Assembly (NCBI GenBank): GCA_902571795.1
Contig: CACGDL010000006.1
Coordinates: 1 to 52,004, forward strand
DNA length: 52,004 nucleotides
Direction of reading: 5' to 3'
Source of the DNA: an uncultured Prochlorococcus sp.
GTDB lineage: Bacteria > Cyanobacteriota > Cyanobacteriia > PCC-6307 > Cyanobiaceae
Shown here piece by piece: positions 31,999-36,547 of this stretch. A model generated the notes under the pieces. It saw only the letters and a program-made list of their open reading frames with translations. It had not been told where the DNA came from and ran no database searches. Position 1 is the first letter of the stretch, and every line of letters begins with the position of its first letter. Both the position numbers and the translations under genes were made by a program.

Positions 31999-32733
31999 AT
32001 GTTAATTCCTTTCAATTACTTACTTATTTTAAAGAATAAAATCAGAGGCATAATACATATTGGTGCCCATGAGTTGGAAGAATTACCTTCATATTTAGAC
32101 AAAAAAATAAATAATATAATTTGGATTGAAGCAAACCCCGAAAAATATAATTTTATTGAAAACAGAATAAACAAATACGAAAATATGATCCTAGGAAAGT
32201 TTGCAGCAGGGAGCAAAAAAGATAATTTATTTTTAAATATTTCAAATAATGGTCAATCATCATCAATACTCCCTTTAGGAACTCATAAAAAGATCTATCC
32301 CAATATTACTTATACTTCAAGGTTATCAGTAGATGTCTTAACTTATGATTCCTGGGCAAACACTAAAAAAATAAGCCAAAAATTATACAATTTTATTAAT
32401 ATTGATATTCAGGGGTACGAATTAGAAGCTTTAAAAGGTATGCAAAGTCAATTGAGAGTAGTTGATTATGTTTATTTAGAAGTAAACTTTCGTGAATTAT
32501 ATATAAATTGCTCTCAAATAAAAGAAATTGATCAATTTTTATCTAATTTTAATTTCAAAAGAGTTGGAACATACAAAACAACTAAAGGTTGGGGGGATGC
32601 AATCTATGTAAAAGATTTCATTCTTTTAAATAAAATTTACTATTTTTTTATCATACCAATTCTAAAAATAATACTTCTCCCATGGAAAATTTTGAAAAAA
32701 ATAAAATTCTATTTAAAAAAATATAAAAGCTAA
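31999..32733 (+). CDS. FkbM-family methyltransferase (first copy)
   Basis: A 244-residue class I SAM-dependent methyltransferase. Motif I is GIIHIGAHELEELPSYL with the acidic strand end IIWIEANPEKY, then the FkbM-typical INIDIQGYELEALKGMQSQL (the D-x-x-G-x-E block, about 134-153) and YVYLEVNFRELY. FkbM enzymes O-methylate hydroxyl groups, often of sugars in polysaccharide clusters. The last 40 residues are hydrophobic and basic, so the protein may sit on the membrane. A second, divergent FkbM gene lies at 33865. The target sugar is unknown. Confidence 0.85.
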   Translation: MLIPFNYLLILKNKIRGIIHIGAHELEELPSYLDKKINNIIWIEANPEKYNFIENRINKYENMILGKFAAGSKKDNLFLNISNNGQSSSILPLGTHKKIYPNITYTSRLSVDVLTYDSWANTKKISQKLYNFINIDIQGYELEALKGMQSQLRVVDYVYLEVNFRELYINCSQIKEIDQFLSNFNFKRVGTYKTTKGWGDAIYVKDFILLNKIYYFFIIPILKIILLPWKILKKIKFYLKKYKS

Positions 32734-32849
32734 TAAATAAATGGCTGAAATACTTAATATGATTTGTTTTTATTATTTTTTATGATTTTCCAAATAATCT
32801 TATAAATATATTAATAATGATTAAATTCTTACGAAAATAGTAATAATAA

Positions 32850-32916
32850 TAGAGTCAAGCTGACTTGAACCGCTGGCCCCCTTCATGCCATCTAGGCAAT
32901 AAATTAAGCTATAACA
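32850..32916 (-). pseudogene. Degenerate tRNA-Ala copy (pseudo-tRNA)
   Basis: Aligned with the intact tRNA-Ala gene at 36135-36207, the first 46 positions from the tRNA 3' end match at 38 sites by my count, covering acceptor 3' strand, T arm, variable loop and the anticodon-loop side. The 5' half is decayed, with only AAGCTAT still alike. Both copies have the same orientation. The better kept 3' half is what a site-specific integration at a tRNA leaves behind. Confidence 0.75.
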
Positions 32917-32974
32917 AGTGTTTGCTACTGTTTTAGCTAAGTTGGTCGAAGGGCTGGTCGCAGGGATAACAATA

Positions 32975-33691
32975 TTAATATTTACTCATTAAAATAAAGT
33001 ATCCATTACAAGATTCCGGCGCCTTATTTTTATAGAAAAATTCCATAAATTTGAGGTAAATTATTATAATTAACGAAATTGAAGAGGATAATAGACTCAA
33101 ATATCTAGGTGAAAAATTTGAAATTCTTAAAATATCATAAGCAACATCATTATAGAAGTTTCCATTTTGTATTATTTTTTTTATTTTTAAATTTTCAGAA
33201 TCAGATATCCTTTCAAACCAATATTTACTGAATCCAGAGAAAAAGAAAAAAGGGGGTTGATGGTAAAAGCATCTAAATGGAGAAGTTACTAATATATCTC
33301 CTCCTTTTTTTAATACTCTAGATAACTCCTTAAGTGCTGCCTCTGGATTGGGCAAATGTTCAAAAACATCACTACACAAAATAAAGTCATATGTTGAGTC
33401 GGCAACAGGTAAGGATGTTATATCACAAATTAAATCACATTCTTTAGATCTCCATTCTTTGGTTCTGACTCCTTCAAAAGTTTCTCCGCCTGTATAACCG
33501 CCAAAATCTTGCGAATGGTAATTTAGATGAGTACAAAAAGATTTATATCTCATTAAGCCTGCTCCAGCATCTAATATTTTTGAATTAGGTTTTAAATCTA
33601 AAAGCCAATTTTTAATAAAATTAAATCTTACATTTTTAGTATTTTTAAATAAATATTTATCTACCAATTTATTTAAAAGTTTTTTGATCAT
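32975..33691 (-). CDS. SAM-dependent methyltransferase (class I)
   Basis: A 238-residue methyltransferase with motif I SKILDAGAGLMRYKSF (about 38-53), CDLICDITSLPVADSTYDFI, motif IV-like LCSDVFEHLPNPEAALKELS (about 108-127) and LKKGGDILVTSPF. This is the Methyltransf_11 layout. A hydrophobic patch near residue 210 (LSLLSSSISLIIIIYLKFM) suggests membrane contact. Its 3' end lies about 60 bases from the pseudo-tRNA, so it would be inside the proposed integrated segment. Substrate unknown. Confidence 0.82.
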   Translation of the reverse strand: MIKKLLNKLVDKYLFKNTKNVRFNFIKNWLLDLKPNSKILDAGAGLMRYKSFCTHLNYHSQDFGGYTGGETFEGVRTKEWRSKECDLICDITSLPVADSTYDFILCSDVFEHLPNPEAALKELSRVLKKGGDILVTSPFRCFYHQPPFFFFSGFSKYWFERISDSENLKIKKIIQNGNFYNDVAYDILRISNFSPRYLSLLSSSISLIIIIYLKFMEFFYKNKAPESCNGYFILMSKY

Positions 33692-33864
33692 TTTAAAAAT
33701 TTTCTAACTGAATAGATAATAAGTTTTAAAATTATAAAACTCAATAAGTTATAGCTGAATTACTTTACATATAAAAATAAAAATTTTTGAGTTAATACAA
33801 TAATTAAACTCAGAATTAAACAAAGGCTTTTTTGCTAATATATTTAATATTTAATTTTATTTAA

Positions 33865-34563
33865 ATGAATACTCTTTCAAAAATAAAGAGAAAAATTAAT
33901 TCTTATATAGAGAAAATATTTCCTACTCAGATTCAAAAAGAAGTAAAAAGATACTATAAGGATGGAGGAGATTACAATTTACGCTATAACTATATTTTAA
34001 ATAATGAATCTGTCGTTTTTGATGTTGGAGGATTTCGAGGAGAATTTAGCAGTAATTTGTTTTCAAGAATGCCCTGCAAAATATATATATTTGAGCCTGT
34101 AAGAGAATATGCCAATTTAATTAAAGATAGATTTAAATATAACAACATGATAAAAACGCATGAATTTGGATTATCTGATAAAACTGAAAAAAAGAATTTA
34201 GCTTTTATTGGGGAAGGATCATCTACTCATAGAATTAAAAAAGCTAAAGAAGAGGGTGAGAATATTTTTTCAATAAAACTAGTTGATATTGCAGATTTTC
34301 TAAATAAAAATTCTATTTTTGAAATAGATTTACTTAAACTTAATATTGAGGGTGGTGAGTATGAAGTATTACCAAGACTAATTGAAAAAAATAAAATACT
34401 TAATATCAAATATATTCAAATCCAGTTTCATGATATTGATAAAGACTCAAAAATAAAAAAAGATTACATCAGAAAAAATCTTGAAAAAACTCATTATTGT
34501 GAATATTGTTATGAATTTATTTGGGAAAATTGGATTAGGAAAGATTTATTAAATAAAATTTAA
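33865..34563 (+). CDS. FkbM-family methyltransferase (second copy)
   Basis: A 232-residue FkbM enzyme: SVVFDVGGFRGEFSSNLFSR as motif I (about 49-68), IYIFEPVREYANLI, and LLKLNIEGGEYEVLPRLIEK as the family block (about 155-174). It diverges strongly in sequence from the FkbM gene at 31999, so it is not a recent duplicate. It converges with the fucosyltransferase-like gene, whose stop lies 2 bases after its own. Likely a sugar O-methyltransferase. Confidence 0.85.
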   Translation: MNTLSKIKRKINSYIEKIFPTQIQKEVKRYYKDGGDYNLRYNYILNNESVVFDVGGFRGEFSSNLFSRMPCKIYIFEPVREYANLIKDRFKYNNMIKTHEFGLSDKTEKKNLAFIGEGSSTHRIKKAKEEGENIFSIKLVDIADFLNKNSIFEIDLLKLNIEGGEYEVLPRLIEKNKILNIKYIQIQFHDIDKDSKIKKDYIRKNLEKTHYCEYCYEFIWENWIRKDLLNKI

Positions 34564-34565
34564 GA

Positions 34566-35642
34566 TTATTTTTTAGAAAAATTTATAAATTTCAATTTGC
34601 TTCTTAATTTATTAGAAAATTTTCTTTGTAACTTATTTGGATTTGAAAAGTAACAATCTTCTTTAAGACTAAACCAATCAATTTTCTCATTTAGTCCATA
34701 TTTATTATCAATGAAATCTAAAATTTCCAAAAGATAAATATCGTCATAATATAAATATTTTTGTGCTTTAAAGAAATTTGATTTCACTGATGAATATATA
34801 TTTTCATAATATTTCAAAGGGTTTTTAGAAATATTATTAATGTGTTCTTCTAATTTCGAAATAGAATTAAATTCTAAAATACCATTACAGTCAAAAAAAT
34901 CTCCTATAGAATTACTCCCCCAATAAATTGGCACTGTGCCTGAGATGAAGCAATCTAATATTTTTTCGGTGAAGTAGTTGCTATAACTTGAATTCTCAAT
35001 AATTATTGAGAATTTATAAGGAAATAACATCTCTCCTTTTTCCTCTACATATTTTCCTTGAGGACCAGAACCCAACTTTTCAACAAGATTATTATTTTTA
35101 ATGAATGATTTGTTAGAAATTACATGTCTAAGTTTGTGCCCAGGACTGATTAACTTGTTTGAAAAATTAAAAGATATATCTTTAACTTTTTTCTTTTTAT
35201 CAACGCCAAAAAATTGTGAACCTATACTTATTGAATCTCCTGGAATATATCTTGCCTTATTTTCAAAATTTATAATTATCTCTGGATCATGCGTAAGTAT
35301 CAAATCGAATTCATTCTCTAAATCGTAGATTATTCTATAAAGATCAGGCCTAATAGCTTTTGACTCTTGAATCAATGCGACGTTGAAATTTGATTTATAG
35401 TCTAAAAAATTGGAATTTATGAAACCATCTAGAAAAAGTGAAACCCCATTCCAATTTTTCATAAATCCAACTTCATTATGAAATTTGTTTTTTCTAAAAT
35501 TTTTTGTCCCGCATGCACAAGCTGCAGAAAGTACACAATCAAAGGAACGCTTAGCTTGGTGTTTTGAAATAGAGTTTAAATAAATATTTTTATTTAATAA
35601 GTATTTATATTTAGACTCTAAAAAAGATATTCTTTTATCCAT
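34566..35642 (-). CDS. Family 10 (fucosyltransferase-type) glycosyltransferase
   Basis: A 358-residue protein. The conserved core is FSIIIENSSYSNYFTEKI (about residue 209), CFISGTVPIYWGSNSIGDFF and FNSISKLEEHINN, which fits the alpha-1,3/1,4-fucosyltransferase motif (F-x-x-x-x-E-N-S...Y-x-T-E-K-x-x-D-x-F-x-x-G-x-x-P-V-Y-x-G). The N-terminal region, including LILTHDPEIIINFENKARYI, is consistent with the GT10 acceptor domain. GDP-fucose or another GDP-deoxy sugar downstream of gmd is the natural donor. It lies inside the segment between the two tRNA-Ala copies. Confidence 0.82.
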   Translation of the reverse strand: MDKRISFLESKYKYLLNKNIYLNSISKHQAKRSFDCVLSAACACGTKNFRKNKFHNEVGFMKNWNGVSLFLDGFINSNFLDYKSNFNVALIQESKAIRPDLYRIIYDLENEFDLILTHDPEIIINFENKARYIPGDSISIGSQFFGVDKKKKVKDISFNFSNKLISPGHKLRHVISNKSFIKNNNLVEKLGSGPQGKYVEEKGEMLFPYKFSIIIENSSYSNYFTEKILDCFISGTVPIYWGSNSIGDFFDCNGILEFNSISKLEEHINNISKNPLKYYENIYSSVKSNFFKAQKYLYYDDIYLLEILDFIDNKYGLNEKIDWFSLKEDCYFSNPNKLQRKFSNKLRSKLKFINFSKK

Positions 35643-35940
35643 ATTTAGTTTTTCTACTAATGAATAATATCATTTTCTTCCCAATTTAAAAAAATAAATA
35701 ATATAACACATCTTCAAGAAATGAAGAAGTTTTTATGAAATTAAAAGGATTGGAAGCAAAAAAAGTTAGAGGGAGTAATTCTTAAGCACTAGATAGAAGG
35801 TTTAAATCCTTTAGCACCTATTGAAGTCTAATTCGCTAAGAGAAATAAAGCGAGATTGTTTGCACAATTCTGCTGAACTTTCACCAACTTCTTAAAAGAG
35901 CAAAGAAAATTAATTCAACAATTATTTTATACTATAAATA
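35643..35940. other. Noncoding stretch with probable gene debris
   Basis: No intact gene is seen. Short frames are interrupted by stops on both strands. One plus-strand piece at about 35829-35893 ends in KRDCLHNSAELSPTS and reads like real protein, but I cannot name a source. The base composition is less AT-rich than the neighbouring spacers. Confidence 0.35.
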
Positions 35941-36134
35941 TCTTTTTTTTATCACGATAGTGCAGCTGTATTAATACGTATGGAGAAATAATATCAGCCG
36001 TTCAAGAAGAGAGATTTTTCAGAAAAAAGCATGATTCAAGGTTTCCAAAAAATGCTATTAAATACTGTTTAGATACTAATAATTTAGATTTATGAGAATT
36101 ACCCGAATCTATTGCTATCACTACTAAAATTGAA
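35941..36134 (+). pseudogene. Fragment of a carbamoyltransferase (NodU/CmcH family), N-terminal end
   Basis: Frames read SFFYHDSAAVLI, then after a shift near 35977 YGEIISAVQEERFFRKKHDS followed by RFPKNAIKYCLDTNNLDL, a TGA at 36093 and ELPESIAITTK. This is the unmistakable start of NodU/CmcH carbamoyltransferases (F-Y-H-D-S-A-A...V-Q-E-E-R-F...K-H-D-x-x-F-P). Only about 60 of some 600 codons remain, with a frameshift and a stop. The fragment ends directly at the 3' end of the tRNA-Ala gene. Confidence 0.85.
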
Positions 36135-36207
36135 TGGAGCCAAGCGGACTCGAACCGCTGACCCCCTGCATGCCATGCAGGTGCTCTACCAGCTGAGCTA
36201 TGGCCCC
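36135..36207 (-). tRNA. tRNA-Ala (anticodon GGC)
   Basis: Read on the minus strand, the acceptor stem GGGGCCA/TGGCTCC closes with one G-T pair, the D arm is GCTC-AGCTGGTA-GAGC, the anticodon stem CCTGC/GCAGG holds the loop ATGGCAT (anticodon GGC), and the T arm is AGCGG-TTCGAGT-CCGCT with discriminator A. CCA is not encoded. All stems pair, so it should be functional. Confidence 0.95.
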
Positions 36208-36547
36208 AAATATCGAAACGTCAGTCATATGGATTAATCTAAAGATTTGATTCTTAACTGTCGTAATTCTTATAATACTTTAAAGCATTTGTAAATTATG
36301 AATTTTAAAATGTGTCTAGAGATTTACAAGTTGTAGCATGTTTATCACTTCTTTAGCTAAAAACATAAATCTCAACAAGACTTTAAATTTACCTAAGTCA
36401 TTTTTTAGAAATATTCCATCACAGTCTATAATTAGAGATTAAATGAACAAACATAACTTCAAACTTAGAAATTATAATTTAAAAAGATGTAGTAATGATT
36501 TTAATTAAATATGTTATTTGTAAAATAATTTTAATTACGCATATTAA
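36208..36547. other. 340-base intergenic region upstream of the GT4 gene
   Basis: No coding frame of note on either strand. The part next to the tRNA must hold its promoter (minus strand), and the distal, very AT-rich part that of the 36548 gene. I see no clear repeat, terminator or recognisable gene remnant here. Confidence 0.4.

Follow-up and report, generated by a model that had tools for sequence, protein, structure and literature searches.

The question raised by this locus is whether 3.3 kb of sugar genes, bracketed by an intact tRNA-Ala(GGC) and a degenerate copy of it on the same strand, are the footprint of one element that targeted this tRNA, as a first-pass annotation had proposed. 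The window, i.e. the whole stretch of 52,004 nucleotides analyzed from an uncultured Prochlorococcus sp., was compared with loci of same-genus genomes, the five named ones being Prochlorococcus. Taken together, our data point to a layered scar of at least two insertions at tRNA-Ala(GGC) by elements of different families (Table 1), a reading to which we give a probability of about 0.85.

Table 1. Features of the scar and its surroundings, in window positions.
Feature	Position	Strand	Basis
FkbM methyltransferase just outside the scar	31999..32733	+	Pfam; comparison with L063
tRNA-Ala 3' half (nt 28-75), probably displaced	32849..32896	-	40/48 identical
Type I element arm (P arm)	32901..32980	-	leave-one-out profile, 72.2 bits, E 1.3e-21
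Arm repeat pair TGCGACCA-N4-TTCGACCA	32943..32962	-	motif scan, <=1 mismatch per repeat
SAM methyltransferase	32975..33691	-	PF08241, E 1.8e-13
FkbM methyltransferase	33865..34563	+	PF05050, E 2.6e-11
GT10-type glycosyltransferase	34566..35642	-	PF00852, E 9.7e-9
Carbamoyltransferase N-terminal fragment (debris)	35976..36095	+	BLAST to L060, L120, L082; reading frame
Type II attL flank remnant (P' side)	36076..36131	-	window-free profile, 38.1 bits, E 5.3e-11
tRNA-Ala(GGC), intact, putative insertion target	36134..36208	-	ARAGORN; Rfam 36135-36207, 65.5 bits

Both ARAGORN and Rfam found the intact gene on the minus strand, and it is the only match in the window above the Rfam gathering threshold; the remaining Rfam matches were dismissed because of scores below it. 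The copy, also on the minus strand, is real but differs from the extent first given for it (32850-32916): an ungapped alignment pairs it with nt 28-75 of the tRNA at 83.3% identity, and positions 32897-32916, formerly read as tRNA, instead form the inner end of an arm of about 80 nt that is conserved, is not tRNA and precedes the copy. The E value of the copy was 3.6e-8 (blastn, 20 loci and the window) and its local score 32, compared with a maximum of 15.5 in six first-order Markov shuffles of the window; neither ARAGORN nor Rfam called it as a tRNA. The matches listed in a whole-genome search were the intact gene and a single further one, of 85%, on a different contig; the copy was not among them. 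Since the copy carries an element arm and the same order recurs in relatives with different cargo, it looks like a 3' half of tRNA-Ala displaced by site-specific insertion.

The arm belongs to a family for which the label type I was coined in the present analysis, and it contains a pair of direct repeats, a layout as in the attR of a tyrosine-recombinase element. The type I profile originally included the window, and the score given in Table 1 is the leave-one-out value. Next to the intact tRNA, the flank is of a second family, type II, and breaks off ahead of its arm repeats. Neither profile had any match in 20 shuffles each. As the proximal flank is of type II and the distal arm of type I, the 3.3 kb are bounded by scars of at least two families and not by the ends of one element.

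The cargo agrees with its initial description as a methyltransferase, an FkbM enzyme, a GT10-type transferase and gene debris, the latter being a carbamoyltransferase N-terminus (the gene of L060 is PF02543/PF16861) that extends into the type II remnant. The SAM methyltransferase ends at the border of the type I arm, a layout shared with cargo genes of some relatives' units (L058, L088). No integrase had been seen in the cargo, and none was found in the window by tblastn with six tyrosine-integrase queries at E 1e-3. The three cargo genes had no blastn match among the other fetched loci. Genes around the 3.3 kb are sugar genes too according to Pfam; the FkbM gene just outside the scar shares 61% amino acid identity with the sole cargo gene of the L063 unit and is reversed in comparison with it, relative to the tRNA.

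The base sample comprised 107 loci, the window included, or 111 with four (L170, L177, L183 and L184) that were picked for an arm motif or junction. Fetched loci with no intact tRNA (L050, L051, L053 and L059) were excluded from the counts, and L091, L117, L129 and L143, whose tRNA matches stop short of nt 70, two of them on the opposite strand, were not scored as 3' fragments. Thirty-eight 3' fragments in the 111 loci extend to nt 70 or further: 37 of the 38 are located downstream of the tRNA and share its strand, one is on the opposite strand and none is upstream on the same strand; without the four added loci, 32 of the 37 are left, in 26 of the 107 loci (window included). The order of intact tRNA, cargo and same-strand 3' fragment is found in the window and recurs in relatives, whose loci carry different cargo beside tRNA-Ala, a variability that the first-pass annotation had named as a check. 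A type I P arm lies upstream of 22 of the 37 downstream fragments, and an older, displaced P' arm immediately behind 14 of them, matching the prediction of serial insertion. In 12 of the 37, the alignment starts at nt 8-23 and not at nt 27 or later, because the P arm resembles the tRNA D arm, a likeness that blurs the crossover point. Four separate tRNA 5' halves all end at nt 42-43. The arm repeat pair gave 31 matches in 22 of the 107 loci, compared with 2 in shuffles; each of the 31 is on the strand of the tRNA, and 11 lie 159-182 nt beyond the start of the tRNA, four about 87-97 nt behind displaced fragments and 16 in P arms. The exact pattern matched 23 times in 14 of 266 genomes, the reversed control having none among the matches listed; the pair of the window has a mismatch and is outside these 23.

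Twenty-two units end distally in a type I P arm, and their proximal arm is of type I in 18 (13 from the 107-locus sample and five from the four added loci), not recognised in three and of another family in one, which is the window. Because the window is unique in this respect, at least two insertions or rearrangements would be layered in it. Exactly one ORF of at least 80 aa is found in 15 of the 18 closed type I units, 16 measure at most 2.6 kb, and 17 have no integrase match, the remaining one showing a 20-residue trace. Pfam assigned five of 14 one-gene units to the FkbM methyltransferases and six to no known family. L064 and L088 have in common a block of about 1.07 kb, 90% identical, running from the tRNA start into the fragment, with unmatched flanks. 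Among named strains, MIT 9201 (L061/L181) carries a closed type I unit in displaced position, and MIT 9302 (L058/L180) only the P arm. In the sample, 15 of 102 FkbM matches lie less than 1 kb from tRNA-Ala(GGC), a raw count in which, for 60 of the 102, the match is on a different contig or the genome has no tRNA that was located; a clustering of FkbM genes in this island may also be independent of the tRNA.

Integrase-like matches just past the tRNA were observed in 9 of 18 type III, 3 of 23 type I, 1 of 13 type II and none of 57 unassigned loci. At the same tRNA, L125 carries a tycheposon-like type III element of 7.9 kb, whose integrase scores 25.8 bits with PF00589, slightly below the cut-off of 27.1, and E 1.8e-14 with a PHROG integrase. 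A candidate cognate of type I is the integrase N-terminal fragment located behind the type I P' arm in G110, a genome whose unit has a 429-aa integrase and no recognised type I P arm. Relatives of this fragment include decayed pieces adjoining tRNA-Ala in G134 and G258, a 263-aa ORF in G194 and genes of 418-452 aa in G175 and G055; in G194, G175 and G055, the stretch that was fetched contains no tRNA. Viral contigs had no match to three exact att patterns, and therefore no phage or satellite with a type I attP was found among them.

Mobile elements with a tyrosine recombinase would insert into tRNA-Ala(GGC), probably at the anticodon arm, each carrying along a tRNA 3' half; the tRNA would therefore stay whole, the host 3' half being displaced downstream behind the other end of the element. 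The attR, made of the P arm and the displaced 3' half, would be what remains in the window of an old type I insertion. A type II element would have inserted later, with no more than about 56 bp of its beginning preserved next to the tRNA, and deletion and gene decay in between would have left the methyltransferase, the FkbM enzyme, the GT10 transferase and the carbamoyltransferase debris. We infer the recombination reaction and the order of these events from the compared sequences. Counting against a layered scar, no empty site was found for the window, searches of the window found no integrase and, with profiles, neither a type I P' arm nor a second type II site, and the crossover point is blurred in 12 of the 37 fragments. 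An empty site with 32850 joined to 36135, which had been suggested as a check, did not turn up when the sequence beyond the scar (first 1500 nt, blastn, matches of at least 150 nt) was compared with the other 110 oriented loci, the sole listed match being the related FkbM gene of L063 in reverse orientation. With the other fragments, whatever matched immediately after an intact tRNA at a different locus was short and largely arm sequence (250 nt in the longest case noted, L101 to L061), and these matches were therefore discounted as empty sites.

A single insertion of one element, a tycheposon or a relative, with the two tRNA copies as attL and attR and a loss limited to the integrase, is improbable: the order and orientation of the copies fit, and their spacing of 3285 bp is within the range of other units, but the proximal flank and the distal arm come from different families, a combination that none of the other type I P-arm units presents. 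Hence the proposed footprint of a tRNA-targeted element stands for the displaced 3' half with its arm and for the recurring order, but not for the two copies as both ends of one element. Far less credit still can be given to a duplicate tRNA gene that decayed independently of any mobile element, a reading that would agree with the low identity (83%) and the missing tRNA call; the alignment is limited to nt 28-75, behind a conserved non-tRNA arm common to other genomes, and nearly all fragments share the same strand and side.

It is possible, although we consider it unlikely, that the scars are real but old bystanders and that the cargo arrived mainly by homologous exchange of a surface-polysaccharide island. 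Since the surroundings are such an island, the cargo could also derive from this exchange; the neighboring sugar genes, the cargo genes unmatched in the other fetched loci and the degenerate state of the scar speak for it, whereas the arm-bounded one-gene units of relatives and the FkbM genes close to tRNA-Ala(GGC) speak against it. This alternative is compatible with the layered-scar explanation of the scars themselves.

Seven target tRNAs are known for tycheposons. In the excerpts of PMC10872708, tycheposons of Prochlorococcus are tRNA-bordered, linked to tyrosine recombinases, remodel islands and measure 4-200 kb. The fit to tycheposons first suggested holds for the tRNA border (the tRNA repeat at the far end being a criterion added here) and for the element of L125, but the window has no recombinase match and only 3285 bp from tRNA to tRNA; the type I units likewise hold almost no recombinase and mostly fall under this size range. 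The layered scar also resembles the additive flexible islands of 'Ca. Actinomarinales', among them an envelope-sugar island (PMC7771536), and fGI-2 of Methylophilaceae (330 bp-42 kb, 1-63 CDS; PMC10872708), which in these excerpts also consist of small cassettes at tRNAs with tRNA-end direct repeats; arm sites, multiple arm families per tRNA and integrase loss are not described in the excerpts of either paper. tRNA-targeted cassettes in marine islands are already known, and tRNA 3' repeats with strain-variable cargo are found across the relatives, the window itself having one repeat. CIMEs are flanked by att sites, lack a recombinase, are thought to be mobilised in trans and accrete at one site; classical ones are remnants of ICEs, whereas the present units mostly hold a single gene and belong to a cyanobacterium with a streamlined genome. 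attL and attR of the same family are seen in the 18 closed units but not in the window, and no match to a recombinase was found in the window or inside 17 of these units. Integron gene cassettes mostly consist of one gene and one recombination site, in arrays that grow from a fixed anchor. The type I units would work alike, with the tRNA as anchor and the tRNA half plus arm repeats as sites, a comparison that also draws on excerpts of PMC4119200.

The arm pair and the tRNA half provide a sequence handle to locate insertions at this tRNA and to order them by their position in the array. Our data suggest that integrase-less one-gene units move at the same site alongside elements with large cargo, and we infer that an integrase supplied in trans mobilises them. 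The FkbM matches near tRNA-Ala(GGC) tie site-specific recombination to the diversity of probable surface-sugar enzymes, a diversity thought to matter for phage attack. Tentatively, and at odds clearly below even, the type I units could be tRNA-anchored, integron-like one-gene cassettes, with an arm pair on each side and no integrase, which through recombinases acting in trans would swap enzymes that decorate surface sugars (FkbM and other methyltransferases, acyltransferases) and perhaps change phage receptors.

The degenerate same-strand copy of tRNA-Ala(GGC) proposed by the first-pass annotation was borne out by alignment, with a local score of 32, where six Markov shuffles reached no more than 15.5. 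The whole-genome search listed the tRNA gene and, on another contig, a match of 85%; the displaced copy was absent from its list.

tRNA-Ala(GGC) and its displaced copy in the window
Feature	Positions	Strand	Remarks
Intact tRNA-Ala(GGC)	36134-36208	minus	sole intact tRNA gene of the window; Rfam 36135-36207, 65.5 bits
Second copy, nt 28-75 of tRNA-Ala(GGC)	32849-32896	minus	ungapped, 40/48 identical

When positions 32700-33000 were searched against 151 same-genus genomes, the better matches did not stop at the tRNA part but took in about 85 nt of non-tRNA sequence as well. We call P arm the element arm before a displaced tRNA 3' half (attR side) and P' arm the one beside the intact tRNA (attL side). 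Alignment over 23 sites revealed two direct repeats TGCGA(C/G)CA with a period of about 12 bp in most arms, the variants tending to co-vary within a pair. A scan for this pair in 107 loci oriented on the intact tRNA (106 relatives, L-numbered below, and the window) gave 31 matches, distributed over 22 loci and without exception on the tRNA strand, versus 2 in shuffles; 16 were at P arms (one, in L056, without a recognised fragment), 11 near the tRNA at 159-182 nt past its start and four behind displaced fragments at about 87-97 nt. The arm of the window reached 72.2 bits (E 1.3e-21) against a profile built without it, and nothing was obtained in 20 shuffles. Among named genomes, the P-arm junction pattern was matched in MIT 9302, MIT 9201, AG-321-E21, AG-894-P13 and AG-355-A09, all Prochlorococcus. 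Judged from sequence, the copy and its arm are arranged like an attR site, in which a P arm is followed by the core and then by the 3' half of the host tRNA, and we read the copy as a junction rather than scrap.

Arms were compared over 111 loci, namely the 107 with an intact tRNA and four added for an arm motif or junction. The 3' flanks of intact tRNAs include at least three families, with the motifs TGCGASCA (type I), CGCAAT repeated (type II) and TGCWCY repeated (type III); the flank near the tRNA was type I in 23 loci, type III in 18, type II in 13 and without assigned family in 57. In the window, the first 56 nt of the tRNA flank belong to type II (38.1 bits, E 5.3e-11), after which the flank gives way to carbamoyltransferase debris, and the distal site is type I. 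Among the 22 units (stretches from the tRNA or a fragment to the next tRNA 3' fragment) whose far end bears a type I P arm, the proximal arm was type I in 18, unrecognised in three and of another family in the window only. Since the families differ at the two ends and 18 of 22 pairs are matched, the 3.3 kb of sugar genes is probably not one element with its own two ends, and the earlier proposal that the tRNA copies bound a single element was not upheld. No empty site was found for the window among the other 110 oriented loci, and a search for attP in viral contigs gave no match. In 14 of 107 loci (e.g., L058, L073, L074) the sequence preceding the tRNA, from -14 to -121, matches a reversed type III arm (20-26 bits), so arm sites may there stand on either side of the tRNA. 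Directly upstream of the tRNA, 15 of 111 loci have integrase-like matches.

Counting tRNA matches that reach nt 70 or beyond (n = 38), 37 fragments share the strand of the intact tRNA, every one downstream of it and none upstream, and the remaining one is on the other strand. These 37 are spread over 30/111 loci (32 fragments in 26/107 without the four added loci); a type I P arm is found upstream of 22, a P' arm of one family or another directly follows 14, and eight have both. These P' arms appear to be older insertion ends, displaced outward by newer ones, as serial insertion predicts. Fragment alignments start at nt 27 or later in 25 cases and at nt 8-23 in 12, the earlier starts being due to the similarity of the P arm to the tRNA D arm; the simplest reading would be a crossover in the anticodon arm. 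Separate tRNA 5' halves that include the upstream flank and end at nt 42-43 are present in L050, L065, L066 and, inverted, L067. The inverted half of L067 and the opposite-strand fragment (L113) are exceptions to the general rule. In the genome G050 (L049/L162/L050), a stretch of about 31 kb, presumably a nitrate-assimilation island, lies upstream of the full tRNA-Ala, behind a tRNA 5' half, with a 433-aa integrase; part of its gene set is found twice in that genome (second at L163).

Eighteen units have both type I arms (closed units), with a tRNA-to-tRNA spacing of 208-4474 bp. ORFs of at least 80 aa number exactly one in 15 of them, three in two and none in one, two of the 15 single ORFs being merely 89 and 110 aa. 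A Pfam scan of 14 of these 15 (the 89-aa ORF of L064 was left out) assigned FkbM (PF05050) to five (L088, L063, L177, L057, L104), and a SAM methyltransferase (L048), a GDSL hydrolase (L049) and an acyltransferase-SGNH (L183) to one each, with no Pfam family in six (L170, L060, L184, L055, L135, L061). FkbM is also present in L058 (P' arm unrecognised) and, by 91% identity to L088, in the first unit of L064 (P arm unrecognised). L064 and L088 have one block in common (90% identity) that begins at the tRNA start and reaches into its 3' fragment; outside this block, matches are limited to tRNA and arm stretches. Very short units between tRNA copies (L108 and L142, 144-145 bp; L177, 208 bp; L055, 125 bp) have no ORF of at least 80 aa and resemble empty cassettes.

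A scan of the 151 genomes with PF05050 yielded 102 matches, spread over 65 of them and in a few cases under the curated cut-off. Fifteen lie less than 1 kb from tRNA-Ala(GGC) (five on its upstream side), four at 1-5 kb, 11 at 5-20 kb and 12 farther on the contig, the remaining 60 being on other contigs or in genomes without a located tRNA-Ala(GGC). The window's genome (77% complete) has two, both adjoining the scar, and the one beyond it shares 61% identity with the L063 cargo.

Tycheposons are described in PMC10872708, which also reports that Methylophilaceae have additive islands in which tRNA-Lys ends recur and the units hold 1-63 genes. Two other papers describe small gene cassettes targeted to tRNAs in the envelope-sugar island of Actinomarinales (PMC7771536) and a different integrase, at the tRNA-Phe and tRNA-Cys genes of Prochlorococcus (PMC10187409). 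No description of arm-flanked one-gene units at tRNA-Ala was found in the open-licence literature searched.

An integrase trace, a 20-residue match directly after the P' arm, occurs in 1/18 closed type I units. Integrase-like matches starting 150-700 nt past the tRNA start were found in 9/18 type III, 3/23 type I and 1/13 type II loci, and in 0/57 without assigned family. The type III element of L125 (7870 bp), with an integrase, an AAA protein and others, can be regarded as a parent-like element; its integrase gives 25.8 bits with PF00589, under the cut-off, and E 1.8e-14 with a PHROG integrase. This element also contains a 1122-aa protein (L125:3616-6984) in which beta-propeller and dockerin were matched. 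The last of the eight ORFs in the type III unit of L087 (8.6 kb) encodes a 113-aa protein whose start is much like that of its counterpart in L125. Integrase N-terminal pieces lie behind the type I arm in the genomes G110 and G134. Together with the integrase-like matches past the tRNA, these pieces suggest that type I units descend from integrase-bearing parents.
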